Below are positions 40,413 through 61,558 of a stretch of 64,000 bases of DNA, in pieces (position 1 is the first letter of the stretch; each line of letters opens with the position of its first letter). The position numbers were made by a program, and so were the translations under genes. The notes under the pieces are model-generated. The model had not been told where the DNA came from. It made no database searches and saw nothing but the letters and a program-made list of their open reading frames with translations. Source of the stretch: Streptomyces sp. RPA4-2 (lineage in GTDB: Bacteria > Actinomycetota > Actinomycetes > Streptomycetales > Streptomycetaceae); NCBI RefSeq assembly GCF_012273515.2, contig NZ_CP050975.2, forward strand, positions 868,001 through 932,000, read 5' to 3'.

Positions 40413-41453
40413 CTACGCGGACTCTCTCACCACGAGTTCCGGGTCGAAGATCACCGAGGTGGGCTCGGTGCGCAGGCCCTGGATGTGCTCGTCGAGGAGA
40501 CCGGCCATCGTCGAGGCCATCTCCTCGACCGGCTGACGCACGGTGGTCAGCGCGGGCCTGCAGGTCGCCGCCACGCTGGAGTCGTCGAAGCCGACGACCG
40601 CGACATCGTCCGGCACCCGTCTGCCGCGCTCCCGCAGCACCTGGCAGGCGCCCTGGGCCATCAGGTCGTTGGCGGCGAACACCCCGTCCACGTCCGGGTG
40701 TTCGGCCAGCAGTCCGGACATGGCGGCCATTCCGCTGTCCAGGGTGAACCCGCCCTCGGCGACCGGCACGTACGGATGCCCGCTGCGCGCCATCGTGTCG
40801 CGGAACCCGGCGAGCCGGTCCTGACTCGCGCCCAACCGTAGCGGTCCCGTGACCGTGACGATCCGTCGGCAGCCCCGCTTCAGCAGATGCTCGGCGGCCT
40901 GTCGCGCGCCGTCCCGGTGCGCGAGGTCGACGTAGCTCAGGGGGACGGGCCGCGACGGCCGGGCGAAGAGGACGGCGGGCACGCCGGCGTCGGCGAGCAG
41001 CGCCGGCATCGGGTCGTCGGCGTGGGTGGAGACGACGAGAGCGCCGTCCGCGCTGCCCTGCCGCAGGTCCGACAGCACTTGCTGTCTGGCTTCGGGGGAT
41101 TCGGCGAACATCAGCAGCGGATGCATCGAGCGGGGCCGCAGATAGCCCACCACGCCGGCGACGACCCGTCCGAAGAACGGGTCCGCGAACACCCGTGCCG
41201 TGAAGGCGTTCTGCTCGCCGTCCGAGGTGTCGCCCGCGCCGGAGACGATCAGCGCGACCGTCTGGGTCCGTCGGGTCACCAGTGATCTGGCGGCCCGGTT
41301 GGGGGCGTATCCGGTCCGCTCGACCGCCTGGCGCACCACTTCCTGAATACCGGGATCGACGTTGCGGACACCGTTGATGACCCGGGAAACCGTCGCGCGG
41401 GAGACACCGGCCTCCCGCGCGACATCCTCCAGCGTGGGGGCCTGTCTGCTCAT
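40413..41453 (-). CDS. LacI-family repressor, probable controller of beta-1,3-glucan genes
   Basis: A 346-residue regulator. The LacI helix-turn-helix and hinge are TLEDVAREAGVSRATVSRVI, then NGVRNVDPGIQEVVRQAV. The ligand domain contains VALIVSGAG, VDGVFAANDLMAQGACQVL and DDVAVVGFDDSSVAATCRPAL. The ATG at 41453 fits the family start (MSRQAPTLEDV). A 10-bp palindromic core AGAGCGCTCT lies 36 bases upstream, and the same core in longer palindromes precedes the nearby DUF1996, GH55 and GH64 genes. It is therefore inferred to repress itself and these genes until an oligosaccharide binds, in the manner of CebR. Confidence 0.9.
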   Translation of the reverse strand: MSRQAPTLEDVAREAGVSRATVSRVINGVRNVDPGIQEVVRQAVERTGYAPNRAARSLVTRRTQTVALIVSGAGDTSDGEQNAFTARVFADPFFGRVVAGVVGYLRPRSMHPLLMFAESPEARQQVLSDLRQGSADGALVVSTHADDPMPALLADAGVPAVLFARPSRPVPLSYVDLAHRDGARQAAEHLLKRGCRRIVTVTGPLRLGASQDRLAGFRDTMARSGHPYVPVAEGGFTLDSGMAAMSGLLAEHPDVDGVFAANDLMAQGACQVLRERGRRVPDDVAVVGFDDSSVAATCRPALTTVRQPVEEMASTMAGLLDEHIQGLRTEPTSVIFDPELVVRESA

Positions 41454-41485
41454 GCCCCGCACCCTAACCGCCGCGTACTGCGCCG

Positions 41486-41504
41486 GGATAGAGCGCTCTC
41501 CCAT
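41486..41504. promoter_or_regulatory. LacI-type box upstream of the lacI-family gene
   Basis: GGGATAGAGCGCTCTCCCA has a perfect 10-bp core AGAGCGCTCT (41490-41499), with one extra base disturbing the left flank. It lies between the repressor and the end of the TIM-barrel hydrolase gene, so it most likely serves autoregulation. Confidence 0.6.
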
Positions 41505-41515
41505 CGAGCTCCGAA

Positions 41516-43264
41516 TCAGCGGTAGACACCGAACTCGTAGAGCGAGTAGCCCCATCCGGTCCCGCGGGCGGTGCCGTTGACGCGCACATAGCGGCCGGTG
41601 CCCGAGACGTCGAGGTCGTCGACGCCGCCGTTGCCGTCGGTGACCGAGCGGACGGTCGTCCAGTTCTGTCCGTCGTCCGACGTCTGCACGGTGTAGGCCT
41701 TCGCGTACGAGGTCTCCCACACCAGTTGCACGTGCCGGAACGAGGTGCGGGTGCCGAGGTCGACGCGGAGCCACTGGGGGTCGCTCCAGTCGCCGGCCCA
41801 GCGGGTGGTGAGGTTGCCGTCGACGGCGCCCGCGGCGGTGCAGGGGCAGTCACCGCCGCCCGCCTGGGACGAGGACGCCGTGGCAGGCTTTCCGAGAGCG
41901 ACGTTCGTACCGCTCGGCACGGGCGGCACCACCCGCACGGAGTGGGACTCGACACCGACGTTGCCCTTGCCGTCCTTGGCCTTGACGTAGATCTTCCAGA
42001 CGCCGGGCCGGTCCGGTGCGGTCACCCTGAGGCGGCCGCCGCCGAGGTCGGTGGAGGGCAGCGGGATCAACTGCTTGCTCTGGTCGAGGTAATTGCTGTT
42101 GTCCAGGACCTCGTACGTGATCGGATCGCCGTTGGGGTCCGTGGCCTTGACCGAGAGGGTGAGGTCACCCCCGGCGGGCACCTTGGCCGCGTCGCCCTCG
42201 ACGGTCAGGGCGGAGATGACGGGCGGGGTGTTGTCGTGGGAGGTGTCCGCGCCGTACGCCCTCTTCACGGCGTAGTACGACAGCCTCTTCTCGCCCGCGG
42301 GCAGCAGGTTGAACCAGATGCCGCCGAAGTCGTACTCGGTTCCGTAGTGGAACATCGTGGCTCCGAGCGCGACACCCCGGTGCCCGGTGACGCAGTTCCA
42401 CGCCCGGGTGTATCCGTCGGCCTTGGCCGGGTCGGTGGGTTCGGCGGGGATGCCGTTGGCGTCGTCCGGTACCTCCCACTCGCCCGCCGGGCCGGTCTCG
42501 GTGATGATGTAGGGCTTGGTGTAACCGCCCTGTTGCCAGGCCGACTTCACGTCGCAGACGGCGTTGTAGGCGTTCACGGCGTACAGGTCGAGGTCGGGCG
42601 CGTTCTTCTTGTAGTAGGGCCACGCGCCGGTCCACGCGTCGGTCGAGGTGACCGGGTGGTTGGGGTCGACGACGTGGATCTTCTTGGTGATGTCGTTGAC
42701 GAGCGTGGTGTAGGCGTCGCGCTGGCGCTCCAGTTCGTCGCCGCTGTAGCAGTTCTGCAGTCCGAGCACGGACTCGTTGCCGACGTTCCACATCAGGACA
42801 CCGGGGTTGTCCTTGTAGGTGGCTGCCCATTGGGGGAACTCGTCGAGCACCTGGTTCTTGTAGGCGGTGTCCGTCAGGTAGTTCACGCAGCCGCCGCTGC
42901 CGGGGCCGCCGCCGGGCTGCAGCCAGAAGCCGGCGATCACCTTGATGCCCTGAGCGGCCGCCGCGTCGAAGAGCGGCTTGCTGGAGGCGTCGGTGCCCCA
43001 GGTGCGGACGGTGTTGACACCCATCGACTTCAGGTCGGGCATGTAGCGCCCGGCGTCGGCGGTGGACGGCCCCCAGGTGAGGCCCTTGATCTGGTACGGG
43101 CTTCCGTCGACGGTCAGTTGCCAGTTGCCCTGCGAGCCGGTGACCTTGACGACGCTGCTTACCGCCTGTGCGGGGTGGGACGGCAGGGCGAGGGCCCCCG
43201 CGGCGAGCAGGGCCGCGGTGACGGGCGCCGCGATACGGCGCCGGGTGGTTCGGGATCCGGTCAT
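41516..43264 (-). CDS. Secreted TIM-barrel glycoside hydrolase with C-terminal CBM32 (F5/8 type C)
   Basis: A 582-residue exported protein. Signal peptide: TRRRIAAPVTAALLAAGALALP. The barrel (about 40-340) starts with SPYQIKGLTWGPSTADAGRY and has the GH clan-A features: acid/base Glu in MWNVGNESVLG and nucleophile Glu in YIITETGPAGEWE. A linker beta-domain with ATDPNGDPITYEV follows (about 350-440). A discoidin/CBM32 domain ends the protein (NVALGKPATASSSQ, AVDGNLTTRWAGDWSDPQWL). The barrel resembles GH2-type and beta-1,3-glucanosyltransferase-like enzymes, so exact family and substrate are uncertain. It precedes the LacI gene on the same strand. CBM32 suggests galactose- or glucan-containing polymers. 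Confidence 0.82.
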   Translation of the reverse strand: MTGSRTTRRRIAAPVTAALLAAGALALPSHPAQAVSSVVKVTGSQGNWQLTVDGSPYQIKGLTWGPSTADAGRYMPDLKSMGVNTVRTWGTDASSKPLFDAAAAQGIKVIAGFWLQPGGGPGSGGCVNYLTDTAYKNQVLDEFPQWAATYKDNPGVLMWNVGNESVLGLQNCYSGDELERQRDAYTTLVNDITKKIHVVDPNHPVTSTDAWTGAWPYYKKNAPDLDLYAVNAYNAVCDVKSAWQQGGYTKPYIITETGPAGEWEVPDDANGIPAEPTDPAKADGYTRAWNCVTGHRGVALGATMFHYGTEYDFGGIWFNLLPAGEKRLSYYAVKRAYGADTSHDNTPPVISALTVEGDAAKVPAGGDLTLSVKATDPNGDPITYEVLDNSNYLDQSKQLIPLPSTDLGGGRLRVTAPDRPGVWKIYVKAKDGKGNVGVESHSVRVVPPVPSGTNVALGKPATASSSQAGGGDCPCTAAGAVDGNLTTRWAGDWSDPQWLRVDLGTRTSFRHVQLVWETSYAKAYTVQTSDDGQNWTTVRSVTDGNGGVDDLDVSGTGRYVRVNGTARGTGWGYSLYEFGVYR

Positions 43265-43336
43265 GGGTGTCCGTCCGGTGTGCGGGTGAGGGGGCGGGGC
43301 GAGGGGAAGTCAGAGGAGGCGGGGCGAAGGGCGAGG

Positions 43337-43377
43337 GCGTCCCGCCTACCGGGCCGTGTTCCGGACCGGCGGGACGC
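43337..43377. terminator. Hairpin between DUF1996 gene and TIM-barrel hydrolase gene
   Basis: GCGTCCCGCC pairs perfectly with GGCGGGACGC across a 21-base loop that has further self-complementarity (CCGGGCC/GGACCGG-like). It starts eight bases after the stop of the minus-strand DUF1996 gene, so it is most likely its terminator. Confidence 0.55.
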
Positions 43378-43384
43378 GACCGCG

Positions 43385-44479
43385 TCAGGGGAGCCGGTAG
43401 TTCGCGTCCAGCGCCGCGCCCGCCTCGGGGTGCGTCTGGTCGTAGCCGCGGGCGTCGCACTGGAGTCCGCCGACGACACAGTGGTCGACGAGCGCCTTGA
43501 GGGTCGGCGCGTCCCACGCGTTGAAGAAGTCGTAGTGGAACGAGTAGCCGGCGCCGCTCGCCAGCCTGACCTGGGACATGTCACCGTTGACCGGGAAGGC
43601 CATCTTGAACTCGATCATCGGCAGGGCGACCGGGTGGTCGTCCGGGCAGATGTTGTTGTTGGTGCCGGGGTTGACGACCGGATACGCCATGTGGCTCTGG
43701 TGGTTGGGGGTGTCCAGGTATTTTCCGTCCCAGCAACTGGGGGCCTGGAAACGGATGTTGAGCTGGACGTCCTGCCTGTCCGGGCACTGCTGCGGGAAGT
43801 CGATGTTGAAGAAGCTGTCGCCGCACTCCCACCCCTCCACGAAACCACGGTGGTTGCGGAAGTCGGCCGCCGACTGCATGGGATTGCCGACGACGAAGCG
43901 CAGCCCCTTCGGGAAGGGCCGCACGCTGGTGTAGTCGGTGACGCCGGCCTTGTAGTAGATGACCTGCGGACCCACCGGAAGCACCGGCGTGCTGCCCTTG
44001 AGCAGGGTCGGCATCCAGTAGGCCGACCTGTCGCCGGGCGCCTTGCAGGTGGTGCCACCGGCGTCGAGCGAGGCGGTGGTGCTGGCCGCGTTCGTCGTGG
44101 TGTTGCCCATGAAGGTGTGGTCGTGCGACTTGCCGGGCTGGCCCGGGTAGACGATCGGGTCGTCGGGCCGGGTGTGGGACACCGAACAGTTCGCCTGGAA
44201 CTCGTGGAAGTAGCGGTGCGCCGGCTCCGCCTTGGAAGGGACGACCCCGGTCACCGGCGGGTTCGCCGGGATGTAGCCGTCGCCGTCCGGGTCCTCGGGC
44301 GAGGCGAGCGTCGAGGCCGGCATCGCGTGACCCGTGTGCACGGTCGTCGACACGGCCACGGACGATGCCGGGCCGGCCGCCGGGTCGGCGCTCATCGCCA
44401 CTCCGGCCAGGCCTAGCGAGGTCAGAACCAGCGCGCTGGACATCAGGATTCCTGAGACGATCTTCGATCTCCGTGCCAT
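43385..44479 (-). CDS. Secreted DUF1996 protein
   Basis: A 364-residue exported protein. After the signal (KIVSGILMSSALVLTSLGLAGVAMSA) and a Ser/Thr/Pro linker comes DUF1996, recognised by FHEFQANCSVSHTRPDDPIV, the histidine motif GKSHDHTFMGNTTTNAAST, SAYWMPTLL and the C-terminal GYSFHYDFFNAWD. The many conserved His, Asp and Cys residues suggest a metal site and disulfides, but no activity is established for the family. The ATG has GGAGGG five bases upstream. A perfect 18-bp LacI-type palindrome lies about 120 bases upstream, tying it to the beta-glucan genes around it. Fungal DUF1996 proteins are also secreted in plant-biomass settings. Confidence 0.88.
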   Translation of the reverse strand: MARRSKIVSGILMSSALVLTSLGLAGVAMSADPAAGPASSVAVSTTVHTGHAMPASTLASPEDPDGDGYIPANPPVTGVVPSKAEPAHRYFHEFQANCSVSHTRPDDPIVYPGQPGKSHDHTFMGNTTTNAASTTASLDAGGTTCKAPGDRSAYWMPTLLKGSTPVLPVGPQVIYYKAGVTDYTSVRPFPKGLRFVVGNPMQSAADFRNHRGFVEGWECGDSFFNIDFPQQCPDRQDVQLNIRFQAPSCWDGKYLDTPNHQSHMAYPVVNPGTNNNICPDDHPVALPMIEFKMAFPVNGDMSQVRLASGAGYSFHYDFFNAWDAPTLKALVDHCVVGGLQCDARGYDQTHPEAGAALDANYRLP

Positions 44480-44597
44480 GGAGACCCTCCTGCCACGTCG
44501 ATGGGGGCGGTGGGGGTCGGGCGGCCGTGAGCGGCGTGGGGTGCACGGTGCTGCCGCGGTCGCCCGCGTGACGGACCATCACATGTGCCGGGATGCA

Positions 44598-44615
44598 TGG
44601 GAGAGCGCTCTCCCA
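44598..44615. promoter_or_regulatory. Perfect 18-bp LacI-type operator (DUF1996 side)
   Basis: TGGGAGAGCGCTCTCCCA is a perfect palindrome. It shares the GAGAGCGCTCTC core with the boxes at 60278 and 41490 and resembles the CebR operator TGGGAGCGCTCCCA with one extra base pair per arm. Confidence 0.75.
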
Positions 44616-44854
44616 GCCAGGAGTGTTGTGGCGGTGACACAGGAGTGTCAAGGGAAATGGACGGAGGATCACTCCCGGCCCTTCGCGCACCTCTTGAACG
44701 CAGGCACGACTCGGAACGCCCGCCGAATGGGGTCCATATGCTCGCGAACTACCGCATCGACAGGCCGAGTTGACTGTTCACTCCGCAACAACATCCGGGA
44801 CTCCGGTCACAACTCTTGACGCGTCGTTCACCTGGATGAAGCATGCATCGGCAA

Positions 44855-44866
44855 GAGAGCGCTCCC
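44855..44866. promoter_or_regulatory. LacI-type box before the GH55 gene
   Basis: GAGAGCGCTCCC has the GAGCGCTC core and one mismatch to the GAGAGCGCTCTC palindrome. It lies 45 bases before the GH55 ATG, a position suited to repression. Confidence 0.6.
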
Positions 44867-44910
44867 CGTACCTCCCACCGTTCACTTCCTGAACCAGGAG
44901 AGTCGCCCCC

Positions 44911-46719
44911 ATGCCTTCAACCCCCACAGAGGCCCAGGACTCGGGCCGGTCGCCGGTGGCACGGCGTTCCGTACTCGGCGCGATGGCCGCCGCTGCCGCC
45001 GCTCCCGGGCTGCTCGGACTGTCCTCGCCGGCATCCGCCGCCCCCGCCGCGCCCGTGAAACAGCCGCAGGCCCTGCCGGGCGGCGGCGACCTCGGCCCCA
45101 ACGTCATCGTCTTCGACCCATCCACCGCCGGTATCCAGTCCAGGCTGGACCAGGTCTTCCGGCAGCAGGAGTCGGCCCAGTTCGGCACGGGACGCTTCGC
45201 GCTGCTGTTCAAGCCGGGCACCTACAACGGGCTCAATGCCCAGCTCGGCTTCTACACCTCGATCGCGGGCCTCGGGCTGTCCCCTGACGACACCACCATC
45301 AACGGCGACGTGACCGTCGACGCGGGGTGGTTCAACGGCAACGCGACCCAGAACTTCTGGCGCTCGGCGGAGAACCTCGCCCTCAGCCCGGTCAACGGCA
45401 CCAACCGGTGGGCGGTCGCGCAGGCCGCCCCCTTCCGTCGGATGCACATCAAGGGCGGCCTCAATCTGGCGCCCAGCGGCTACGGCTGGGCCAGCGGCGG
45501 CTACATCGCCGACAGCCGCGTCGACGGCTCGGTCGGACCGTACTCGCAGCAGCAGTGGTACACCCGCGACAGTTCGGTGGGCGGCTGGACCAACGCCGTC
45601 TGGAACATGGTGTTCTCCGGTGTCCAGGGCGCACCCGCGCAGTCCTTCCCGAACCCGCCCTACACCACGCTCGACACCACACCGGTCTCGCGGGAGAAGC
45701 CGTTCCTCTACCTGAGCGGCAGCGAGTACCGCGTCTTCCTGCCGGAGAAGCGGACCAACGCGCGCGGCACCACCTGGGGCAGCGGCACCCCGCGCGGAAC
45801 GTCGCTGCCGCTCAGCCAGTTCTACGTGGCCAAACCGGGCGTCTCCGCCGCCACCCTGAACGCCGCGCTCACTCAGGGCCTCCATCTGCTGCTGACGCCG
45901 GGCATCTACCACCTCGACCAGCCGATCCAGGTCAATCGCGCGGGCACCGTGGTCCTGGGCCTCGGTTACGCCACCCTGATCCCGGACAACGGCGTCACCG
46001 CGCTCAGGACGGCGGACGTCGACGGGGTACGGCTGGCCGGCTTCCTGATCGACGCCGGTCCCGTCAACTCCTCCACCCTCCTGGAGGTCGGGCCGGCCGG
46101 GGCCTCCGCGGACCACTCCGCCAACCCGACCACCGTGCAGGACGTCTTCGTCCGGATCGGCGGCGCGGGCGCCGGCAAGGCCACCACCAGCATGGTCATC
46201 AACAGCCGTCACACGATCATCGACCACACCTGGGTCTGGCGCGCCGACCACGGCACCGGCGTCGGCTGGGAGACCAACCGGGCCGACTACGGGATCCGCG
46301 TCAACGGCTCCGACGTCCTGGCCACCGGCCTGTTCGTCGAGCACTTCAACAAGTACGACGTCCAGTGGTACGGCGAGCGCGGGCGCACGATCTTCTTCCA
46401 GAACGAGAAGGCGTACGACGCGCCGAACCAGGCCGCCATCCAGAACGGCGGGATCAAGGGGTACGCGGCCTACAAGGTCGCCGACTCCGTGACCACGCAC
46501 GAGGGATGGGGCCTGGGCAGCTACTGCTACTACAACGTCGATCCGACGATCGTCCAGCACCACGGGTTCGCGGCACCGAACAAACCGGGGGTGAAGTTCC
46601 ACAACCTCCTGGTCGTCTCACTGGGCGGCAACGGGCAGTACGAGCGGGTCGTCAACGACACCGGGGCACCCACCTCAGGGACCTCCACCGTGCCGTCCAC
46701 GGTGGTCTCCTACCCCTGA
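44911..46719 (+). CDS. Secreted GH55 exo-beta-1,3-glucanase-like protein
   Basis: A 602-residue exported enzyme with a Tat-type signal (ARRSVLGAMAAAAAAPGLLG). The mature part follows Streptomyces GH55 laminarinases such as SacteLam55A: FALLFKPGTYNG, AQAAPFRRMHIKGG, SGGYIADSRVDG, GAPAQSFPNPPYTTLDTTPV, and LLLTPGIYHLD. Two beta-helix modules are joined as in that family. The proposed acid is Glu499 in FFQNEKAYD, matching Glu502 of SacteLam55A. It would release glucose from laminarin or fungal wall glucan. The ATG has GGAGAG eight bases upstream and a LacI-type box 45 bases upstream. Databases often label such genes adenylyl cyclase or coagulation factor 5/8 protein, wrongly. Confidence 0.88.
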   Translation: MPSTPTEAQDSGRSPVARRSVLGAMAAAAAAPGLLGLSSPASAAPAAPVKQPQALPGGGDLGPNVIVFDPSTAGIQSRLDQVFRQQESAQFGTGRFALLFKPGTYNGLNAQLGFYTSIAGLGLSPDDTTINGDVTVDAGWFNGNATQNFWRSAENLALSPVNGTNRWAVAQAAPFRRMHIKGGLNLAPSGYGWASGGYIADSRVDGSVGPYSQQQWYTRDSSVGGWTNAVWNMVFSGVQGAPAQSFPNPPYTTLDTTPVSREKPFLYLSGSEYRVFLPEKRTNARGTTWGSGTPRGTSLPLSQFYVAKPGVSAATLNAALTQGLHLLLTPGIYHLDQPIQVNRAGTVVLGLGYATLIPDNGVTALRTADVDGVRLAGFLIDAGPVNSSTLLEVGPAGASADHSANPTTVQDVFVRIGGAGAGKATTSMVINSRHTIIDHTWVWRADHGTGVGWETNRADYGIRVNGSDVLATGLFVEHFNKYDVQWYGERGRTIFFQNEKAYDAPNQAAIQNGGIKGYAAYKVADSVTTHEGWGLGSYCYYNVDPTIVQHHGFAAPNKPGVKFHNLLVVSLGGNGQYERVVNDTGAPTSGTSTVPSTVVSYP

Positions 46720-46740
46720 CCGTGCCCCGGGGGCCGGCTC

Positions 46741-48012
46741 TCAGCAGGCGGTCAGGCTCCCGAGGTCGACCGCGTCGGCCATCGCCTGCATCCCCTTGTC
46801 GTTGGGGTGCAGGTGGTCGCCGCCGTCGAAGAAGGGCAGGATGCGCTGCGGGTCGTAGGGACTGCGGGTGATCCTGTCGAAGTCCGTCACGCCGTCGAGC
46901 GCGCCGCTGGTCCTGATCCACTCGTTGACGCCCTGCCGCACCGCCTCGGAGGCGGCGTCGTACTCGGACCAGTCCTTGAACGGCATGACGGTCGCTCCGA
47001 CGACACACTTGCCCGCCGCGTGCGCCCGGTCGATGATCTGGCGGTAGCCGGCGATCATGTCGTCCACCGTGACGCCGGTGTGGGCCTTGATGTCGTTGAT
47101 CCCTTCGAACAGGAACACCGTCCGCACCCCGGGCTGGGAGAGCACATCGCGGTCCAGCCGGTTCAGCGCGGCCTGTCCGGCACCGTCCGCGAGCACCTTG
47201 TTGCCCGAGATCCCCTCGTTCGCCACTCCCTTCACGGGGATGCCGGGCGCCGCCTGCAGCCGCTGGGACAGGTAGTCGGGCCAGCGACGGTTGCCGTCCG
47301 TGGTCGAGGCCCATCCGTCGGTGATGGAGTCACCGAGGGTCACCACCGAGCCGACCGCCGTGGGCGTCTCCACGTCGACGGCGTCCAGCCAGTACCAGGA
47401 GCCCATCGGATCGGTCCAGTTGGCCGCGCCCTCCTCGGCGGCGTGGTCGCCCGCGGTCGCGTAGTTGGTCTGCATGGCCATGCCGTGACCGGTCGTGGGT
47501 CCCTCGGCGCCCGTCACGTACAGGCTGATCACCAGATCGCTCCGGGCGGCCAGCTTCCCGGGCAGCGGATCGCTCAGCACCACCTGTCCGGCGGGGACGG
47601 TCACGGACGGGGCTCCACCGTTGAAGGAGAGCCGCCGGTTGGAGCCGTGGACCAGCTCCGCACCCTGTCTGCGCAACCCGGCGTACGCGCTGGCGAAGGT
47701 CACCGGGTGCTCGCCGAAGGCGTTGGACAGCCGGATCCGCAGGCCGGTGCCGCCGACGCTGGTGCGCACGATCAGGCGGTAGCTGCGGTCGGCGGGCCCG
47801 GCGCCCTGCCGGTCGGCGCCGGCACCCCAGGTGACGACGGAGTGTCTGCCCTTGGCGGCGGCAGGGTTCGCCACCGTGCTCGGAACCTTCGCCGGCGGCT
47901 GGGTCACCTGCTGCGCCTGCGCCGTCGACGAGGCGGCCAGGGGTCCGCACAGGGCCATGACGAGGGCCGAGAAGACGCCCACCGCACGGCGGCGGTACGA
48001 GACGGCGCTCAT
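46741..48012 (-). CDS. Secreted SGNH/GDSL esterase
   Basis: A 423-residue exported hydrolase. Signal: RRAVGVFSALVMALCGPLAA. A beta-rich N-terminal domain (about 55-200) is followed by the SGNH domain (about 210-423): nucleophile Ser in VVTLGDSITDGW, block II Gly in NEGISGNKVL, Asn in FLFEGINDIKAH, and Asp/His in FFDGGDHLHPND. Enzymes of this layout remove acyl groups such as acetyl from polysaccharides. Its ATG overlaps the stop of the GH95 gene by four bases, so it is the last gene of the GH27-GH95-esterase operon and probably deacylates the same polymer. Confidence 0.9.
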   Translation of the reverse strand: MSAVSYRRRAVGVFSALVMALCGPLAASSTAQAQQVTQPPAKVPSTVANPAAAKGRHSVVTWGAGADRQGAGPADRSYRLIVRTSVGGTGLRIRLSNAFGEHPVTFASAYAGLRRQGAELVHGSNRRLSFNGGAPSVTVPAGQVVLSDPLPGKLAARSDLVISLYVTGAEGPTTGHGMAMQTNYATAGDHAAEEGAANWTDPMGSWYWLDAVDVETPTAVGSVVTLGDSITDGWASTTDGNRRWPDYLSQRLQAAPGIPVKGVANEGISGNKVLADGAGQAALNRLDRDVLSQPGVRTVFLFEGINDIKAHTGVTVDDMIAGYRQIIDRAHAAGKCVVGATVMPFKDWSEYDAASEAVRQGVNEWIRTSGALDGVTDFDRITRSPYDPQRILPFFDGGDHLHPNDKGMQAMADAVDLGSLTAC

Positions 48013-50426: not shown

Positions 50427-50448
50427 GGTGGTGCACTCCAAATCCGAG

Positions 50449-50493
50449 AACGGCTCATGCGGGAACGGCTCGTGCGGGAACGGCTCGTGCGGG
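50449..50493. repeat. 15-bp tandem repeat, three copies
   Basis: AACGGCTCRTGCGGG is repeated at 50449, 50464 and 50479 (first copy with A), followed by a degenerate fourth copy. It fills the 5' leader of the GH95 gene between it and the GH27 stop. Its position in the leader could affect mRNA folding; otherwise it may be simple slippage. Confidence 0.85.
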
Positions 50494-50572
50494 AACGACG
50501 GCTGCGGACCGTCGGCGTCGGGCTGGTCCCCGCGGGGCCCGGGGCGTGTCACCGGGCCCCGCGGGAAGCAGG

Positions 50573-52396: not shown

Positions 52397-52435
52397 GGGT
52401 CGTGCCTCCTGGGAGTGGGTTCAGGGTGGGGCGGC

Positions 52436-54327: not shown

Positions 54328-54353
54328 GGTGCGGGAGACCTTTCCGGTCCTGG

Positions 54354-55667
54354 TCAGGCCGTGAAGAATCGCGAGCGCTGCGATTCGATCTTCTTCAGCG
54401 TTCCCGTGCCGTCGTCGGGGTGGCCGAGCCACTGGGTCAGTCCGGGGAGCACGACGGTGGAGATGAAACCGGGATCGCTGTCACGGTCCGCGAACTGGCT
54501 GATGTGCTTGGCGGAGGCGATGAGCTCCGCGGACTTCTTCTGCAGCGCGTTGTAAGAGCCGGTGTTCGCCTGCTCGTTGACGGCGAGGTTGCTCGGGTCG
54601 ACCCCCATGTACAGCTCCTCGGCGTGGGCACCCCCGAGGAACTCCAGGAACTTCTTGGCCCCGTCCGCGTTCTTGGGCCTGCGGCTGAGCATGAAGCCGT
54701 CGGTGGGGGCCTCGACGGCGTCCTGGCCGTGGGCGGAGTCGATCTCGGGGAAGGGGAAGAAGTCGATGTCGGCCCGGATCGCCTCGTCGGTGATCTGCTG
54801 GCCGAGGAAGAGACCGATGACGGCCATGCCCGACTTCTTGTCGAGCAGCGACTGCGCGGCGTCCTGCCAGGACCGGCCGCCCGCGCCCTGCTGGTAGTAG
54901 GGCGTGAGTTCGCGCCAGTGGTCGAGGGTGGCGACGGCGCGCGGGTCGGTCCAGGAGACCTTGCCGCGCATCAGCGACATGTGGAAGTCGTAGCCGTTGG
55001 TGCGCAGGTTGAGGTAGTCGAAGGCGCCGAGGATGCTCCAGCTGTCGCCGCCGCCGTATCCGGAGGCGATCGGGGACAGGCCGTCCCGCTTCATGCGCTT
55101 GGCGAGAGCGACGAACTCGCTCCACTTCTGCGGGACTTGGTAGCCGCGTTCCTTGAAGAGGCTCTTTCGGTAGAAGACGGCCCACGGGTAGTTGTACAGC
55201 GGAACGAAGTAGAACTTTCCGTCCTCGCCGCGGGAGAGCTGCTTGGTGGCGTCGCTGAAGCCGGCGCCTATCTTGTCCCACACGTCGTCGAGCGGCGTGC
55301 AGAGCTTCTTCTTGGCGAAGTACTGCATGCGGTATCCGGCGAACCAGGTGAAGACGTCGTCCGGGGTGCCCTGCAGATAGGTGGAGATGCTCTTCTGGAA
55401 GGTGTCGTGGTCGACGGTGTTCGTCTTCACCGTGAGACCGCTGTCCTTGCCGAACGCCTTGGTCAGGCCGGCGTAGGCGGATTTGGGGGTGGCGTCGGCG
55501 CCGTTGGAGCCGAAGGTGACCGTCTTCGGGTCGGCCCCCGCTCCCCCGCCGCACGCGGTCAGTACGGGCGCGGCCAGTGCGGCGGCGCCGAGTCCGAACA
55601 GCCCGCCGACGACTCTGCGCCGGCCGGGGTCACGCGCAGCCAGGGGATTGCGGCTCTGCTGCGTCAT
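54354..55667 (-). CDS. Sugar ABC transporter substrate-binding lipoprotein
   Basis: A 437-residue exported binding protein of the CUT1 extracellular type. Signal and lipobox: VVGGLFGLGAAALAAPVLTAC, with lipidated Cys in LTACGGG. Mature motifs include DVFTWFAGYRMQYFAKKK, FYFVPLYNYPWAVFYRKSLF, DSWSILGAFDYLNLR and MAVIGLFLGQQITDEA. The ATG has GAGGAG three bases upstream of its spacer. It captures an oligosaccharide for the two permeases encoded downstream; the operon continues with GH27, GH95 and an esterase, so the ligand is probably a galactoside-, arabinoside- or fucoside-containing fragment. Confidence 0.94.
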   Translation of the reverse strand: MTQQSRNPLAARDPGRRRVVGGLFGLGAAALAAPVLTACGGGAGADPKTVTFGSNGADATPKSAYAGLTKAFGKDSGLTVKTNTVDHDTFQKSISTYLQGTPDDVFTWFAGYRMQYFAKKKLCTPLDDVWDKIGAGFSDATKQLSRGEDGKFYFVPLYNYPWAVFYRKSLFKERGYQVPQKWSEFVALAKRMKRDGLSPIASGYGGGDSWSILGAFDYLNLRTNGYDFHMSLMRGKVSWTDPRAVATLDHWRELTPYYQQGAGGRSWQDAAQSLLDKKSGMAVIGLFLGQQITDEAIRADIDFFPFPEIDSAHGQDAVEAPTDGFMLSRRPKNADGAKKFLEFLGGAHAEELYMGVDPSNLAVNEQANTGSYNALQKKSAELIASAKHISQFADRDSDPGFISTVVLPGLTQWLGHPDDGTGTLKKIESQRSRFFTA

Positions 55668-55741
55668 CGTCGCTCCTCATGCGTGTCAGTACGTGGTGAT
55701 CTTCGGTGCGTGTCTGCTGTCGTACGGTCGGGACCTGGTAC

Positions 55742-55792
55742 GAGTCGGTGGTCGATGCGAGTCCGTGGTCGATGCGGGTGCGTGGCTGATGC
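55742..55792. repeat. 17-bp imperfect tandem repeat, three copies, before the importer operon
   Basis: Three 17-base units, GAGTCGGTGGTCGATGC, GAGTCCGTGGTCGATGC and GGGTGCGTGGCTGATGC, lie head to tail between the ROK gene and the binding-protein gene. The unit length is near one and a half helical turns. They may be regulator sites or slippage products. Confidence 0.8.
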
Positions 55793-55836
55793 GGGGACGG
55801 CACGTGCGCGGGTGGTCCTCGGTGCGCGCTCCGTCC

Positions 55837-57015
55837 TCAGTGCGCTTCCGATGTGATGAAGGACTGGATCGCGGTGGCCGCGGCCCCGCGCGCCCACTCC
55901 TCGAAGGGCAGCGGGCGGGTCTGTACGTCGCACATCGCGGCCGACCCGAAGGCGGCCGCGCCGAACGCGTCGCGGATCTGTTCGGCGAACAGGTCGTAGG
56001 CGGCGAGCCCTTCGCCGGAGATGATCACCCGCTCGGGGCCGAGGAGGTTGGCCACGGTGGCGATGCCCCGGCCGATCGCCTCGCCCGCGCGGGCGTACAC
56101 CTCGCGCGCTCCGGGGTCGCCGTCGTGGGCCAGGTCCAGCGCCGCTGCGGCGTCGGCCACCCGTACACCCGTCACCTCCCGGACCTGGGCGACGATCGCC
56201 GAGTCCGAGGCGATCGCCTCGACGCAGCCGCGGTTGCCGCAGTGGCAGAGCGGACCGGCCGGGTCGATGGCGACATGCCCGATCTCACCGGCCACGCCGT
56301 GGGCTCCCGCGACCACCTGGCCGTGCACGACCAGACCGCAGCCGATGCCCGCGCCGACCGTCACCAGGGCGAAGTCGGACAGCCCCACTCCGGCGCCGAA
56401 CCACTGCTCGGCCACGGTCAGGGCCCGTACGTCGTTGTCCACGGTGACCGGAAGTCCGGTGGTCATCCCGGCCAGTTCGGCGAGCGGCACGTCGCGCCAT
56501 TCCAGGAACGGCGAGTAGCGCACCACTCCGGCCGAGCGGTCCACGTCGCCGGAGACGGCGATGCCGATGCCCTGGACCCGGACCCCGAAGCCGTCCGCCT
56601 CCGTCAGCAACTCCTGGACGAGCGCCGCGGTCGAGGCCAGCACCGACCTGGGCGCCCGGGACGTGAGCGACACGTGCCGGGCGACCCTGATGCGGCAGCA
56701 CAGGTCCGTGAGAACGGCGATGAGTTCGTCGCCCGTCATCTTGATCCCGATGAACAGGGCCCTGCCTCCGTCGACCCGCACCGGGTTGGCGGGCCGCCCG
56801 AGAGCGGGCTGCCGCCCGTCCTCGGCGACGTCCTCCAGGAGGTAGCCCGCCTCGATGAGGGGACGGACCGCCTTGGTGACCGCCGCGGCCGACAGCCGGG
56901 TCCGCCCCGCTATCTCCGACCGCGTGAGCGGACCGTGGGACAGCACGGTGGTGAAGATCTGGGAAGCGGCCGGCGTATGGGCCGGGAACGCCTCGGGGGG
57001 AGAGGTCGAGCGCAT
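55837..57015 (-). CDS. ROK-family transcriptional repressor
   Basis: A 392-residue regulator. An N-terminal winged helix (LTRSEIAGRTRLSAAAVTKA, then VRPLIEAGYLLE) is joined to a ROK sugar-kinase-like domain with IGIKMTGDELIAVLTDL, VTVGAGIGCGLVVHGQ and GAHGVAGEIGHVAID. The zinc-binding CHCGNRGCVEAIAS is intact. It lies immediately upstream of the importer operon on the same strand and divergent from the GH36 gene, so it probably represses both until a sugar binds. A strong promoter overlaps its start with no leader. Confidence 0.93.
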   Translation of the reverse strand: MRSTSPPEAFPAHTPAASQIFTTVLSHGPLTRSEIAGRTRLSAAAVTKAVRPLIEAGYLLEDVAEDGRQPALGRPANPVRVDGGRALFIGIKMTGDELIAVLTDLCCRIRVARHVSLTSRAPRSVLASTAALVQELLTEADGFGVRVQGIGIAVSGDVDRSAGVVRYSPFLEWRDVPLAELAGMTTGLPVTVDNDVRALTVAEQWFGAGVGLSDFALVTVGAGIGCGLVVHGQVVAGAHGVAGEIGHVAIDPAGPLCHCGNRGCVEAIASDSAIVAQVREVTGVRVADAAAALDLAHDGDPGAREVYARAGEAIGRGIATVANLLGPERVIISGEGLAAYDLFAEQIRDAFGAAAFGSAAMCDVQTRPLPFEEWARGAAATAIQSFITSEAH

Positions 57016-57021
57016 GGCCGG

Positions 57022-57050
57022 AACCTAGGGTCATTATTTTCTGCTGTCAA
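57022..57050 (-). promoter_or_regulatory. Strong promoter of the ROK gene, apparently leaderless
   Basis: On the minus strand a perfect TTGACA (57050-57045) and TAGGTT (57027-57022) are separated by exactly 17 bases. The -10 ends six bases before the ATG, so transcription should begin at or within a base or two of the start codon. No ribosome binding site is present. The surrounding CATTATTTTCTGCTGTCAA is the most AT-rich patch in the area. Confidence 0.7.
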
Positions 57051-57197
57051 TGAAAGAAACAGGATTCGTCTGAGGATGCTTGAGGAGATGCCTGTGACCT
57101 GCGAATGCAAAACCTGGATGGGGCATTGACACGTGATCCATGGTCGGGGTTGGCTTTCGCTCGTCTCGTACGTGGCACCGTCTGAACGTGAGGACCC

Positions 57198-59306
57198 ATG
57201 TCGCCGATCTCCTTCGCCCCGGACACCGGGCTCTGGCTGCTGTCCACCCCGCGCACCTCGTACGCGCTGCGGGTCGACGAGACCGGGGCGCCGTGCCACG
57301 TCGCGTGGGGCCCGCGGCTGACCCTCGAAGAGGCCGAGCGGATCGCCGCCGTCCCCCCGGCCGTCGCGGCCAGCAGCTTCGAGGGCAGGCCCGGGGTCGG
57401 GGAGGAACTCCCCGTCGACGGCGGGACCCGTTACGGACCGCCGTCCCTGCAGGTCAGGTTCGAGGACGGGTCCCGCGCCTTCGAGTGGCAGCCGGCCGGC
57501 CACGACGTGCGCGAGGGCGAGCTGACCCTGTCGTTCCGTGACCGCCGCTACCCCCTGCGGGTGGAGCTCCACTACCAGGTGCGCGACAACACGGACGTCA
57601 TCGAGCGCTGGACGGTCGTGCGCAACCTGGGCGACGAGCCGGTCACCCTGCTGCGCGCCGACTCAGCCGCGTGGACCCTGCCGCTGCTGCGGGACTACCG
57701 GCTCGGCCATGTCACGGGCCAGTGGTCCGCGGAGAGCCGGCTCCACCGGGACCGACTGGCCCACGGCGAAACGGTGTTGACCAGCCGCCGCGGGATCACC
57801 AGCCATCACGCGAATCCTTGGGTGATGCTCGACTCGGGCGAGGCGACGGAGGACCACGGCCGGGTGTGGAGCGCCGCCCTCGCGTGGAGCGGGAGTTGGC
57901 GCGTCACCGTGCAGCGCACCCCCGACGGGCGGGCCGGGTTCACCGGCGGGATCGGCCACGACGGTACGACCGTGCCGCTGGCGCCGGGCGAGGAGTTCAC
58001 CGCTCCCCCGTTCGCGGGCCTGTGCACCGACGGCGGCTTCGGCGCGGCCAGCCGCGCCTGGCACGCGTACGTCCTGTCCCATGTGCTGCCACACGCGCGG
58101 GAGGACGCGCCGGTGCTCTACAACTCCTGGGAGGCGACCGGCTTCGACGTCGACGAGGTCGGGCAGAAGGGACTGGCGGAACGGGCCGCCGCGCTCGGGG
58201 TGGAGCTGTACGTCGTCGACGACGGGTGGTTCGGGGCGCGCCGCAGCGACCACGCGGGACTGGGCGACTGGACGCCGTCGGCCGACCGGTTCCCGGACGG
58301 GCTCGCCCCCCTGGTCCGCGCGGTGCACGGTCTCGGGATGCGCTTCGGCCTCTGGGTGGAGCCCGAGATGGTGAATCCGGACAGCGACCTGTACCGCCAA
58401 CACCCCGACTGGGTCCTGCACTTCCCCGGCCGGCCCCGCTCCGAGCTGCGCAACCAACTGGTCCTCAACTTCGCCCGCCGCGAGGTCGCCGACTGGGCCT
58501 ACGAGTGGCTGACGCGGCTGGTCGGCGACCACGGCATCGACTTCCTCAAGTGGGACATGAACCGCGCGTTCAGCGAGGCGGGCTGGCCCGGGCAGCAGGA
58601 CGGCACGGACCGCCTCGGACCGCAGTACGTGCGCAATCTCTACGGTGTTCTCGACCGTCTGCGCGCGGATCATCCGGCGCTGCGGATCGAGTCGTGCAGC
58701 GGCGGGGGCGGGCGGGTCGACCTGGGCATTCTCGCCCGTACGGACCAGGCGTGGGCCTCGGACAACACCGACGCCGCCGACCGGATGTGGATCCAGCACG
58801 GCTACGGCCAGGTCTACCCCGCGCGCACCATGGGCGCGTGGGTGACGGACGTGCCCAACCAGCTCACCGGACGTACGGTCCCGCTGCGATTCCGTTTCCA
58901 TGTCGCGATGGCCGGAGCGCTGGGCATCGGAGGTGACCTCACCCGCTGGTCCGAGGACGAACTGCGGGACGGTGCCGCCCTGGTGGCCGACTACAAGGCG
59001 GTGCGCCACCTGGTGCAGCACGGCCGGCTGGACCGGCTCGCGCCGCCCGCGGACTCCGACGCCGTGCTGCAGTACACCGCCGGGGACGCCTCGGAGACGC
59101 TGCTGCTGGCGTACCGGCGGGTGGCCCGGCACGGCAGCCCGCATCCGCCGGTCCGGCTGCGCGGCCTGACCCCGTCGGCCCGCTACCGCGACACGCACAC
59201 CGGCGCCGTGCACCACTCGACCGTGCTCGGGGAGTACGGGATCGTCCTCGATCTGCCGCCGGGCGACTGGTCGAGCACGACGGTGCACCTGGTCCGGGAG
59301 GCCTGA
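57198..59306 (+). CDS. Cytosolic GH36 alpha-galactosidase
   Basis: A 702-residue enzyme without signal peptide. The N-terminal beta-sandwich (WTVVRNLGDEPVTLLRADS) precedes the barrel, with VLYNSWEATGFDVDE, YVVDDGWFGARR and MRFGLWVEPEMVNPDSDLYR. The nucleophile is Asp453 in FLKWDMNR and the acid/base is Asp522 in WASDNTDAADRMWIQHGY. Its RIESCSGGGGRVDLGIL is typical of GH36 subgroup I. It would hydrolyse imported alpha-galactosides such as raffinose-type sugars inside the cell. It is divergent from the ROK repressor and ends at a strong terminator. Confidence 0.95.
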   Translation: MSPISFAPDTGLWLLSTPRTSYALRVDETGAPCHVAWGPRLTLEEAERIAAVPPAVAASSFEGRPGVGEELPVDGGTRYGPPSLQVRFEDGSRAFEWQPAGHDVREGELTLSFRDRRYPLRVELHYQVRDNTDVIERWTVVRNLGDEPVTLLRADSAAWTLPLLRDYRLGHVTGQWSAESRLHRDRLAHGETVLTSRRGITSHHANPWVMLDSGEATEDHGRVWSAALAWSGSWRVTVQRTPDGRAGFTGGIGHDGTTVPLAPGEEFTAPPFAGLCTDGGFGAASRAWHAYVLSHVLPHAREDAPVLYNSWEATGFDVDEVGQKGLAERAAALGVELYVVDDGWFGARRSDHAGLGDWTPSADRFPDGLAPLVRAVHGLGMRFGLWVEPEMVNPDSDLYRQHPDWVLHFPGRPRSELRNQLVLNFARREVADWAYEWLTRLVGDHGIDFLKWDMNRAFSEAGWPGQQDGTDRLGPQYVRNLYGVLDRLRADHPALRIESCSGGGGRVDLGILARTDQAWASDNTDAADRMWIQHGYGQVYPARTMGAWVTDVPNQLTGRTVPLRFRFHVAMAGALGIGGDLTRWSEDELRDGAALVADYKAVRHLVQHGRLDRLAPPADSDAVLQYTAGDASETLLLAYRRVARHGSPHPPVRLRGLTPSARYRDTHTGAVHHSTVLGEYGIVLDLPPGDWSSTTVHLVREA

Positions 59307-59333
59307 GCCGGGAGCGGGCAGCTCTGAGCCGGT

Positions 59334-59366
59334 CCCCGCCCGGGTCGGAAACGGACCCGGGCGGGG
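59334..59366. terminator. Strong terminator hairpin after GH36
   Basis: CCCCGCCCGGGTC-N7-GACCCGGGCGGGG forms a perfect 13-bp stem 28 bases after the GH36 stop. It lies between convergent genes and may work both ways. Confidence 0.75.
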
Positions 59367-59395
59367 ATCACCCGCGGGGCCGGAACCGCGGAACC

Positions 59396-59430
59396 GGCTG
59401 CGGGCTGCGGGCTGCGGGCTGCGGGCTGCG
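59396..59430. repeat. 7-bp tandem repeat, five copies
   Basis: GGCTGCG is repeated five times without error (59396-59430), between the GH36 terminator and the lipoprotein stop. Such short G-rich runs vary by slippage and can also form G-quadruplexes. Confidence 0.9.
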
Positions 59431-59444
59431 GGTCGGCTACCCGG

Positions 59445-60083
59445 TCAGTAGCGCTGGGCCTTCGTCAGACGCGGGGTCAGCTGGGGTGTGGTGGGCTGCC
59501 TGCTGATGGCGACGGGCTGGGCTCGCTTGCCCGGTTCGAGGTTCTCCGCACCCACGAACCGGGTCTCGACGACCTTGCCCTTCGCGTCCTCGAAGTCGAC
59601 CTGCACGGCGTACGACGCCTTCTTGTCCGTCTTGTTGGTGATGCTCACGAGCACCGCGAGCAGCCCGCCGGTCTGTCCCCTGGGCAGACCGGTCATCGCG
59701 ACCTCGGACCTCGCGTTCCCGCCGCCGTGAACCTTCTTCAGCTCGGCCTCCGCCGCCGCGCTCGCACGGGCGGTGTCGGCCGAGACGGACGCCGCGAACT
59801 CCGACGCCGCGGCGGACAGGGACGAGGCCGCCGCCGACGCCGAGGACTGGGCGGAGGCCACGGCCGACGAGGCGGCCGACGCCATGGCGGACGGCGCGCT
59901 GCCGGAGAACGACCCCGTGACCGGCGCCGAGGGGCGGGCGCTCGCCGAGGCCGTGCCGTTGTCGTTGCCGCTGCCCGTGCCGCACGAGACGAGCGCGGCG
60001 CCGCAGGTCAAAGTGGCCAGGAAGGCCGCGCCCGTACGGGTTCGGCTGCCCCGTCGGGGGTCACCGTAGGTGCGTCTGCTCAT
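59445..60083 (-). CDS. Ala/Ser-rich lipoprotein of unknown function
   Basis: A 212-residue exported lipoprotein. Signal with lipobox: GAAFLATLTCGAALVSCGTG, lipidated Cys at VSC. Residues about 45-115 are a low-complexity Ala/Ser stretch (SAMASAASSAVASAQSSASA), predicted helical and perhaps spanning the cell wall. The C-terminal 90 residues form a compact beta domain (GGLLAVLVSITNKTDKKASY, then AVQVDFEDAKGKVVE) that resembles the FxLYD/DUF-type immunoglobulin-like modules of actinobacterial lipoproteins. The ATG follows GAGGACGAG. It is divergent from the GH64 gene; whether it belongs to the beta-glucan system is unclear. Confidence 0.8.
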   Translation of the reverse strand: MSRRTYGDPRRGSRTRTGAAFLATLTCGAALVSCGTGSGNDNGTASASARPSAPVTGSFSGSAPSAMASAASSAVASAQSSASAAASSLSAAASEFAASVSADTARASAAAEAELKKVHGGGNARSEVAMTGLPRGQTGGLLAVLVSITNKTDKKASYAVQVDFEDAKGKVVETRFVGAENLEPGKRAQPVAISRQPTTPQLTPRLTKAQRY

Positions 60084-60251
60084 GAAGCTCGTCCTCTTCC
60101 TGCCGGTCCGGAACCCGGTCCACGGGCCTGTTCCATGCTCCGTGCCCGCCTCCGCGTCCGCGATCGGTGCTGACCCGTTGGGGTGCTCCGCCCAGCGGAG
60201 GTCCGGGTCCTGGCCGCCCGCGGTTGGACCAGACCAGTTCTGCGTGAATCG

Positions 60252-60280
60252 TTGACATGTACTCCACCCGCCGCAATTCT
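60252..60280 (+). promoter_or_regulatory. Candidate promoter of the GH64 gene
   Basis: TTGACA (60252-60257), a 17-base spacer and AATTCT (60275-60280) precede the GH64 gene. The -10 directly overlaps the left arm of the LacI-type palindrome, an ideal arrangement for repression. Confidence 0.55.
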
Positions 60281-60295
60281 GAGAGCGCTCTCAGA
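60278..60295. promoter_or_regulatory. Perfect 18-bp LacI-type operator of the GH64 gene
   Basis: TCTGAGAGCGCTCTCAGA is a perfect palindrome with the same GAGAGCGCTCTC core as the box at 44598, 15.7 kb away. It lies 67 bases before the GTG start. Confidence 0.75.
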
Positions 60296-60361
60296 GAATC
60301 CGGACGGCTTCCGTCCGCAGTGATCCACCTCGTTGGAACCCCCACGTCAAGGAGGAAGAGA

Positions 60362-61558
60362 GTGCAGAGAAAACGCACATGGCGAGCCTTGGCGGTGGCC
60401 GCGGCCACCCTCACCGCGGCGCTGCTGACCTTCGGAGCGCCGTCCGGGGCCGAAGCAGCCGTCCCGGAGACGATCCCGCTCAAGGTCACCAACAACTCCG
60501 GCCGCGGCGACCCGGTCTACCTCTACGACCTCGGCACCCTGCTGTCGACGGGACAGCAGGGCTGGGCCGACGCGAACGGCACGTTCCACGCCTGGCCCGC
60601 CGGAGGCAATCCGCCGACACCGGCTCCGGACGCGTCGATCCCCGGACCGGCGAACGGCCAGACGAAGACGATCCGCATCCCCAAGTTCTCCGGCCGGATC
60701 TACTTCTCCTACGGCCAGAAGCTCGACTTCCGGCTGACGACCGGCGGCCTGGTCCAGCCGGCCGTGCAGAACCCGAGCGACCCCAACCGCAACATCCTCT
60801 TCAACTGGTCCGAGTACACGCTCAACGACTCAGGGCTGTGGATCAACAGCACCCAGGTCGACATGTTCTCGTCCCCCTACGCCGTGGGGGTCCAGCTCGC
60901 CGACGGGAGCACGAAGAACACCGGTCACCTCAAGGCCGGCGGCTACACCGGGTTCTTCAACGCCCTCCGGGGGCAGCCGGGCGGCTGGGCGAACCTGATC
61001 CAGACCCGGTCCGACGGCACGGTCCTGCGGGCTCTCGCCCCGGGCCACGGCATCGAGTCGGGCGCGCTCCCGGCGACCGTCATGGACGACTACGTCAACC
61101 GTGTGTGGCAGAAGTACAGTTCGTCGACGCTGACGGTGACCCCGTTCGGCGACCAGCCGAACACGAAGTACTTCGGGCGCGTCTCCGGCGGCGTCATGAA
61201 CTTCACCAACAGTGCCGGAGCGGTCGTCACCAGCTTCCAGAAGCCCGACTCCGACAGCATCTTCGGCTGCTACAAGCGGCTCGACGCCCCCAACGACCTG
61301 GTGCGCGGACCGATCTCACGCACCCTGTGCGCGGGCTTCAACCGTTCCACGCTGCTGACCAATCCCAACCAGCCGGACACCGGTTCGGCCGGCTTCTACC
61401 AGGACACGGTGACCAACCAGTACGCCCGCAAGATCCATGCGCAGATGGCCGACGGCAAGGCCTACGCGTTCGCCTTCGACGACGTCGGCAACTACGAGTC
61501 GCTCGTCCACGACGGCAACCCCCAACAGGCCTACCTCACACTGGATCCGTTCAACTGA
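60362..61558 (+). CDS. Secreted GH64 beta-1,3-glucanase
   Basis: A 398-residue exported enzyme of the thaumatin-like GH64 family, which cuts beta-1,3-glucan to laminaripentaose. Signal: RKRTWRALAVAAATLTAALL, ending near GAEAA. The mature start IPLKVTNNSGRGDPVYLY is typical. The catalytic pair known from LPHase (Glu154 and Asp170) appears as Glu151 in FNWSEYTL and Asp167 in STQVDMFSSPYA, with identical spacing. The C-terminal half contains IFGCYKRLDAPND and NQYARKIHAQMADGKAYAF. The GTG has GGAGGA five bases upstream. With GH55 it can break fungal or callose-type glucan: GH64 makes oligomers, GH55 releases glucose. Confidence 0.93.
   Translation: MQRKRTWRALAVAAATLTAALLTFGAPSGAEAAVPETIPLKVTNNSGRGDPVYLYDLGTLLSTGQQGWADANGTFHAWPAGGNPPTPAPDASIPGPANGQTKTIRIPKFSGRIYFSYGQKLDFRLTTGGLVQPAVQNPSDPNRNILFNWSEYTLNDSGLWINSTQVDMFSSPYAVGVQLADGSTKNTGHLKAGGYTGFFNALRGQPGGWANLIQTRSDGTVLRALAPGHGIESGALPATVMDDYVNRVWQKYSSSTLTVTPFGDQPNTKYFGRVSGGVMNFTNSAGAVVTSFQKPDSDSIFGCYKRLDAPNDLVRGPISRTLCAGFNRSTLLTNPNQPDTGSAGFYQDTVTNQYARKIHAQMADGKAYAFAFDDVGNYESLVHDGNPQQAYLTLDPFN

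Follow-up and report, generated by a model that had tools for sequence, protein, structure and literature searches.

Beta-1,3-glucanase genes of Streptomyces sp. RPA4-2 are probably divided between two interlocking LacI-family regulons

The window analysed here is 64,000 nt in length and represents bases 868001–932000 of the single-contig 9.86-Mb genome of Streptomyces sp. RPA4-2. It contains a beta-1,3-glucan locus with a gene for a LacI-family repressor (the window LacI) and genes for glycoside hydrolase (GH) enzymes and a DUF1996 protein, several of them preceded by palindromic boxes. Comparison of these boxes and repressors across genomes indicates that there are probably two interlocking LacI regulons and not one. 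The window LacI would bind operators of the type GGAGAGCGCTCTCC and repress lacI, the DUF1996 and GH158-like genes and the divergent GH55 gene. The box of the type TGAGAGCGCTCTCA before the GH64 gene would be an operator read by a sister repressor, L032. This LacI is encoded at 7.52 Mb, 6.6 Mb from the window, has ligD-like and glyoxalase genes as neighbours and shares 49% of its residues with the window LacI where the two align.

The two operator classes share a 12-bp core, GAGAGCGCTCTC, and differ at position 7 of the half-site, which is part of a G.C pair in GGAGAGCGCTCTCC and of a T.A pair in TGAGAGCGCTCTCA. A sequence-only reading of this DNA had described perfect 18-bp palindromes with a common core before the DUF1996 and GH64 genes and one-mismatch forms before GH55 and lacI. 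All four are present as described, and the first two account for two of the three perfect 18-bp palindromes that the window contains. The one-mismatch cores are TAGAGCGCTCTC (positions 41489–41500, 36–47 bp before the lacI ATG at 41453) and GAGAGCGCTCCC (positions 44855–44866, before the GH55 ATG at 44911); both boxes are imperfect relatives of GGAGAGCGCTCTCC. The genome search proposed in that reading reveals six exact cores versus none for the reversed pattern, and 43 versus 15 with up to one mismatch. In 121 Streptomyces genomes the core is present 603 times versus 18 for the control.

Co-occurrence was scored over the same 121 genomes, with a window-LacI orthologue defined by at least 60% identity; two genomes with only a 52–55% paralogue are scored as without. 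GGAGAGCGCTCTCC is found in 48 genomes, TGAGAGCGCTCTCA in 102, the window LacI in 49 and an L032 orthologue in 103. GGAGAGCGCTCTCC is present in 45 of the 49 genomes with the window LacI and in 3 of the 72 without it (Fisher p = 8.7e-25; table 45, 4; 3, 69). TGAGAGCGCTCTCA is present in 99 of the 103 genomes with L032 and in 3 of the 18 without it (p = 5.3e-13; table 99, 4; 3, 15). The crossed tests give p = 0.31 for GGAGAGCGCTCTCC and L032 and p = 0.45 for TGAGAGCGCTCTCA and the window LacI. When three genomes less than 90% complete are dropped, the values are 5e-24 and 1e-13, and 0.18 and 0.45 for the crossed tests.

The genes downstream divide in the same way. A set of 214 distinct boxes from 180 loci was compared (80 loci picked by lacI, 80 by flank and 20 by the core alone); genes were labelled with tblastn and a gene picker based simply on frame composition, and a box between two genes is counted for both. 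The flanks are G.C in 129 boxes, T.A in 55 and mixed in 30, and 14 boxes are unlabelled. No T.A flank is found before genes for DUF1996 (55 G.C, 9 mixed), lacI (20 and 7), GH55 (24 and 2), GH3 (19 and 1) or GH158 (6 and 1). No G.C flank is found before genes for GH16-CBM6 (15 T.A, 2 mixed), protease (13 and 1), GH64 without CBM32 (two groups; 16 and 1), GH81 (4 and 2) or GH101 (3 and 0). GH64-CBM32 boxes are G.C in two cases and mixed in five. The label GH16CBM32x3 with G.C flanks represents the CBM32 domain of other genes, and a GH55 gene is nearby in 21 of 27 cases. The beta-1,3-glucanase families behind the boxes are GH64, GH55, GH16, GH81 and GH158-like, as expected of a beta-1,3-glucan regulon.

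The 20 core-picked regions are from six genomes that lack the window LacI, and their flanks are T.A in 12, mixed in 8 and G.C in none. The targets are GH64 (in five of the six genomes), GH55, GH16-CBM6, a protease, an unnamed 470-aa gene and an L032-like LacI. In three of these genomes the core box stands before a LacI that is 86–89% identical to L032.

Both repressors have boxes before their own genes. In a survey across 296 genomes of the class, loci were retrieved for the top matches only. GGAGAGCGCTCT is found before 11 of 12 window-LacI orthologues with 64–89% identity, from five genera and two families, and the full 14-mer before seven. L032 has its own box 79 bp upstream. Among its 27 orthologues, a box with the GAGCGCTC core lies no more than 130 bp upstream in 18, and the G.C pair is present in none. 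In 80 lacI-centred loci from named records (79 Streptomyces and 1 Lentzea), boxes recur before lacI, DUF1996 and GH55. The place of the lacI box, about 48–49 or 64 bp upstream, recurs in many orthologues. Its broken half (CTCTAT or CTCTAC) recurs in the nearer orthologues and the perfect form is found in many more distant ones; the box may represent a deliberately weak auto-regulatory site.

The window LacI is a LacI-family regulator by Pfam search, with PF00356 and PF13377 both over the cut-off. Its top PDB match is 5ysz (270.8 bits), which we take to be Thermobifida CelR; this match and its closeness in a tree place it in the CebR/CelR subfamily. The tree has 64 rows and includes 30 of the 83 window-type rows, 10 L032 rows and 8 CebR rows. 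Support is 100/100 for the window clade, 100/98 for L032 orthologues and 97/91 for CebR rows. The three are joined under a 100/99 fork, whose inner order the tree does not settle. The labels L032 and L017 are not single clades because the best-of-three-queries rows include distant LacIs. L017 is CebR by context, with the exact CebR box GTGGGAGCGCTCCCAC and genes for a sugar-binding protein, a permease and a GH1 enzyme. Neither the window LacI nor L032 has this arrangement of TGGGAGCGCTCCCA beside sugar transporter and GH1 genes. As both LacIs are relatives of CebR, whose box is TGGGAGCGCTCCCA, the three are paralogues with operators one base per half-site apart: TGGGAGC for CebR, TGAGAGC for L032 and GGAGAGC for the window LacI. 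The recognition region has GRGT in CebR versus SRAT in the window LacI and L032. Of 80 window-clade rows, 76 have N at position 29 (LacI numbering); all 10 L032 rows (at least 60% identity) have G there and CebR has R or K. With this numbering and an assumed link of the residue to an operator base, the differences in the recognition region fit the operator shift.

A second LacI paralogue, mostly 54–58% identical, is present in 15 genomes (including G005, G044, G052, G053, G056, G065 and G070). These have a mean of 11.9 core boxes versus 4.9 in 34 genomes, hinting at a further regulon duplication.

From these sites and their targets we infer binding and repression as follows. Both repressors would occupy their promoters until a beta-1,3-gluco-oligosaccharide, the probable ligand releasing the window LacI, lowers their affinity, as is reported for cellobiose and CelR (PMC3377646). 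L032 would hold back dispersed enzymes, here GH64, GH16-CBM6 and the alpha-lytic-type protease; those of other species would also include GH81, GH101 and additional GH64 enzymes. The GH64, GH16 and GH81 enzymes would cut glucan, GH55 and GH158 would trim the products, and the protease would strip wall protein. Together these enzymes could open up the wall of a fungus or yeast. The proteins behind the six exact cores have N-termini that are signal-peptide-like, as judged by eye, and the best solved relatives of the protease are chymotrypsin-like serine proteases, alpha-lytic protease included. Zymolyase-type mixtures consist of a laminaripentaose-producing glucanase and a protease. By analogy, a GH64 enzyme and a lytic-type protease that came under one operator class would resemble such a mixture.

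Several points weigh against two separate regulons. The model is built on sequence comparison, and binding and expression are predicted. In the window the GH55 and lacI boxes are imperfect. Elsewhere in the genome the boxes of GH64-CBM32 and GH16-CBM32 are of the mixed type (flanks A.A and G.T), and therefore either repressor may read them. A near-symmetric box is missing in 10 of the 80 lacI loci (L076, L090, L095, L109, L120, L122, L129, L130, L134 and L141), of which L076, L090 and L134 carry a one-mismatch box. No box precedes 9 of the 27 L032 orthologues, and the L032 box is frequently hybrid, with GGGAGC as one half. Among window-LacI relatives at 49–58% identity, 13 of 17 have no box in the fetched stretch, as expected if these are other paralogues. 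Both pairings have exceptions: GGAGAGCGCTCTCC without the window LacI in three genomes and the window LacI without GGAGAGCGCTCTCC in four, and TGAGAGCGCTCTCA without L032 in three and L032 without TGAGAGCGCTCTCA in four. The co-occurrence p-values ignore the shared ancestry of the genomes and so overstate their independence, and the protein searches scored the best 17 candidates per genome. The 80 flank-picked loci were selected in a way that removes mixed sites, and locus sets A and C may still contain near-identical species.

In an alternative explanation, any site with a GAGCGCTC core would be open to both paralogues, and perhaps to CebR, at graded affinities. The flank would then tune the strength of binding and the regulons would overlap broadly. 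The operators are only one base per half-site apart, and hybrid sites are found before L032 and before GH55. The GH55 box pairs a CebR-like half (GGGAGC) with a GAGAGC half, and therefore CebR might read it too; such hybrids precede GH55 in many orthologous loci. In two genomes that lack the window LacI, GH55 boxes are still present, with mixed flanks. However, the main target classes show no overlap of G.C and T.A flanks and each class co-occurs cleanly with its own repressor, which makes graded binding the less likely account, though some cross-binding may occur.

The sequence-only reading had placed all four boxes, that of GH64 included, under the window LacI. The LacI-family sites linked to beta-1,3-glucan genes exist. 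The core common to all the boxes, the position of the GH64 gene 19 kb from lacI and the frequent company of the window LacI with DUF1996, GH158-like and GH55 genes are in keeping with control by this one repressor through the 12-bp core. However, the GH64-type box tracks L032 and not the window LacI. It is found before GH64 in five of the six examined genomes without the window LacI, and the main targets are split by flank. Ownership of all four boxes by the window LacI is thus improbable. Another LacI, L033, lies beside an ABC transporter and the second GH64 gene (587 kb), with an exact core box between L033 and GH64-CBM32. Its own promoter has another palindrome, CTAAACCGGTTTAG (L045:6210–6290), and its recognition helix differs (SRSAVSFVLND), so it is very unlikely to regulate the GAGAGCGCTCTC boxes. 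That the palindromes are chance products of GC-rich DNA is scarcely credible: a loose motif with up to three mismatches is not significant within the window alone (5 matches versus 3.6 expected), but the core is in large excess over the 121 genomes and the boxes of named species recur at set distances from the same genes.

The genes of the locus and the boxes are listed in Table 1. Residues 38–445 of the TIM-barrel enzyme match the GH158 structure 9oro (1.6e-33) in a PDB sequence search, across the catalytic domain, and residues 454–581 match glucanase 2rv9; the enzyme thus resembles GH158 in sequence. The DUF1996 protein has a signal-like N-terminus, as judged by eye. No Pfam family was matched by the GH55-type enzyme. 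Its PDB match, 4pew, is listed only as a "putative secreted protein", which we take to be the GH55 laminarinase SacteLam55A. The match of the GH64 protein, 3gd0, is a laminaripentaose-producing enzyme. A GTG start at 60362 is more likely for this gene than ATG 60257 because AAGGAGG directly precedes it. From this GTG, the palindrome ends about 67 bp upstream. The proposal that this box touches the -10 is unproven, since a consensus scan of positions 60000–60500 found no sigma-70-like promoter. The GH27/GH95 block between GH55 and GH64 is skipped by the boxes, as had been proposed; it contains genes for an ABC transporter and a ROK-family regulator of its own and a single motif match, at three mismatches (55433).

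Table 1. Genes and boxes of the beta-1,3-glucan locus (window positions) and exact cores (genome positions)
Feature	Position	Strand	Remarks
Window LacI, LacI-family repressor, 346 aa	40413..41453	-	Pfam LacI and Peripla_BP_3; CebR/CelR paralogue
Probable auto-regulatory lacI box, GGGAGAGCGCTCTATC (gene strand)	41487..41502	.	one half imperfect; recurs in orthologues
GH158-like TIM-barrel enzyme with C-terminal CBM32-like domain	41516..43264	-	PDB matches; Pfam F5_F8_type_C
DUF1996 protein	43385..44479	-	PF09362, 5.4e-49
Operator, G.C class, TGGGAGAGCGCTCTCCCA	44598..44615	.	perfect 18-bp palindrome; sole GGAGAGCGCTCTCC of the genome; before DUF1996
Imperfect box before GH55, AAGAGAGCGCTCCCCG	44853..44868	.	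one half CebR-like; hybrids recur at orthologous loci
GH55-type enzyme	44911..46719	+	4pew, 1047 bits over residues 52–602; diverges from DUF1996
Operator, T.A class, TCTGAGAGCGCTCTCAGA	60278..60295	.	perfect 18-bp palindrome; TGAGAGCGCTCTCA type; before GH64
GH64 laminaripentaose-producing beta-1,3-glucanase, 398 aa from GTG	60362..61558	+	PF16483, 4.8e-110; PDB 3gd0, 654.7 bits
Exact core	587798		before GH64-CBM32
Exact core	912601		before DUF1996
Exact core	928281		before GH64
Exact core	7441067		before GH16-CBM6
Exact core	9327788		before three-CBM32 GH16
Exact core	9394731		before protease with alpha-lytic prodomain

The genes of the locus and their boxes often keep company in other species. 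The lacI-centred loci, some of which end at contig edges, contain DUF1996 in 58 of 80 cases, GH158 in 54, GH55 in 37 and GH64-CBM32 in 14. A gene for a transglycosylase-LysM-M23 protein, a peptidoglycan hydrolase, shares the region of the lacI box in one branch (L103:5842–7368). The TCTGAGAGCGCTCTCAGA 18-mer is also found before a GH16 gene at 7.44 Mb. T.A or mixed boxes in other species precede GH101 (endo-alpha-N-acetylgalactosaminidase) and GH81 genes (L188:1–2490 and L191:1–2349), and in L191 a gene for a sugar-binding protein is transcribed divergently from that of GH81. A 460–470 aa family is also located behind T.A boxes (L171:2604–4016, L201:2495–3895 and L216:1144–2523). Its L171 and L201 members have no Pfam match, and L171 has no PDB or NCBIfam match; the family is a candidate new enzyme. 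Of the 43 core sites with up to one mismatch, 20 places outside the window were fetched, four exact and 16 others, and genes beside seven of the 16 were analyzed by Pfam. No beta-1,3-glucanase is found beside these seven one-mismatch places; one is the promoter of L032 itself and another is flanked by GH2-type and sugar-binding-protein genes.

The closest known systems are CebR of Streptomyces and CelR of Thermobifida, which belong to the same subfamily, have the same GAGCGCTC palindrome centre and control glycoside hydrolases. The CebR box TGGGAGCGCTCCCA is printed by Book et al. 2016 (PMC4898821) and also in PMC3377646. Both new regulators differ from it in A for G at position 5, and the window LacI alone in G for T at position 7. 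The targets here are beta-1,3-glucanases, DUF1996 and a protease, and no ceb-type transporter is seen beside the window lacI or the L032 gene. Both palindromes were printed for other actinobacteria by Anderson et al. 2012 (PMC3377646). These authors place TGAGAGCGCTCTCA of Catenulispora acidiphila before two GH16 possible endo-1,3-beta-glucanases, before an ABC transporter and before a LacI gene that is accompanied by a GH5-family gene. For Streptosporangium roseum they report GGAGAGCGCTCTCC ahead of a run of five adjacent genes, among which are one for a LacI protein, two for CBM32 proteins and one for GH3. Section 8 of that paper treats both as CelR-like sites per species and not as operators of two repressors, and no target in Streptomyces, no DUF1996 and no protease is named in that section; the main text of the paper mentions neither GH55 nor GH64 nor laminarin. 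GlyR3 of Clostridium thermocellum is also a LacI-family regulator of a glycoside-hydrolase cluster, but from a distant bacterium; laminaribiose occurs 63 times in the GlyR3 paper (PMC5483248). A SirexAA-E study describes secretion of a GH64 protein on xylan and the presence of a GH55 protein on glucose. The two thus behave differently, but these observations show no sign of laminarin induction. No description of DUF1996 in bacterial beta-glucan breakdown was found among the titles and abstract openings listed.

In a broader reading, somewhat more likely than not, an orphan CebR paralogue, present in 103 of 121 genomes, would run a dedicated fungal-wall-lysis regulon of beta-1,3-glucanases and a lytic-type serine protease, and a further paralogue would have gained a one-base-shifted operator together with a GH55/GH158/DUF1996 island. 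CebR, L032 and the window LacI would then form a three-step ladder that separates the responses to beta-1,4- and beta-1,3-glucan, and DUF1996 would be a hitherto undescribed part of beta-1,3-glucan breakdown. If this is true, it would represent a testable genetic switch for fungal-wall attack in a genus known for antifungal compounds. It would also bring a protease and beta-1,3-glucanases together under a common operator, place DUF1996 in a testable context and provide a clean natural case of repressor paralogues separated by single operator bases.

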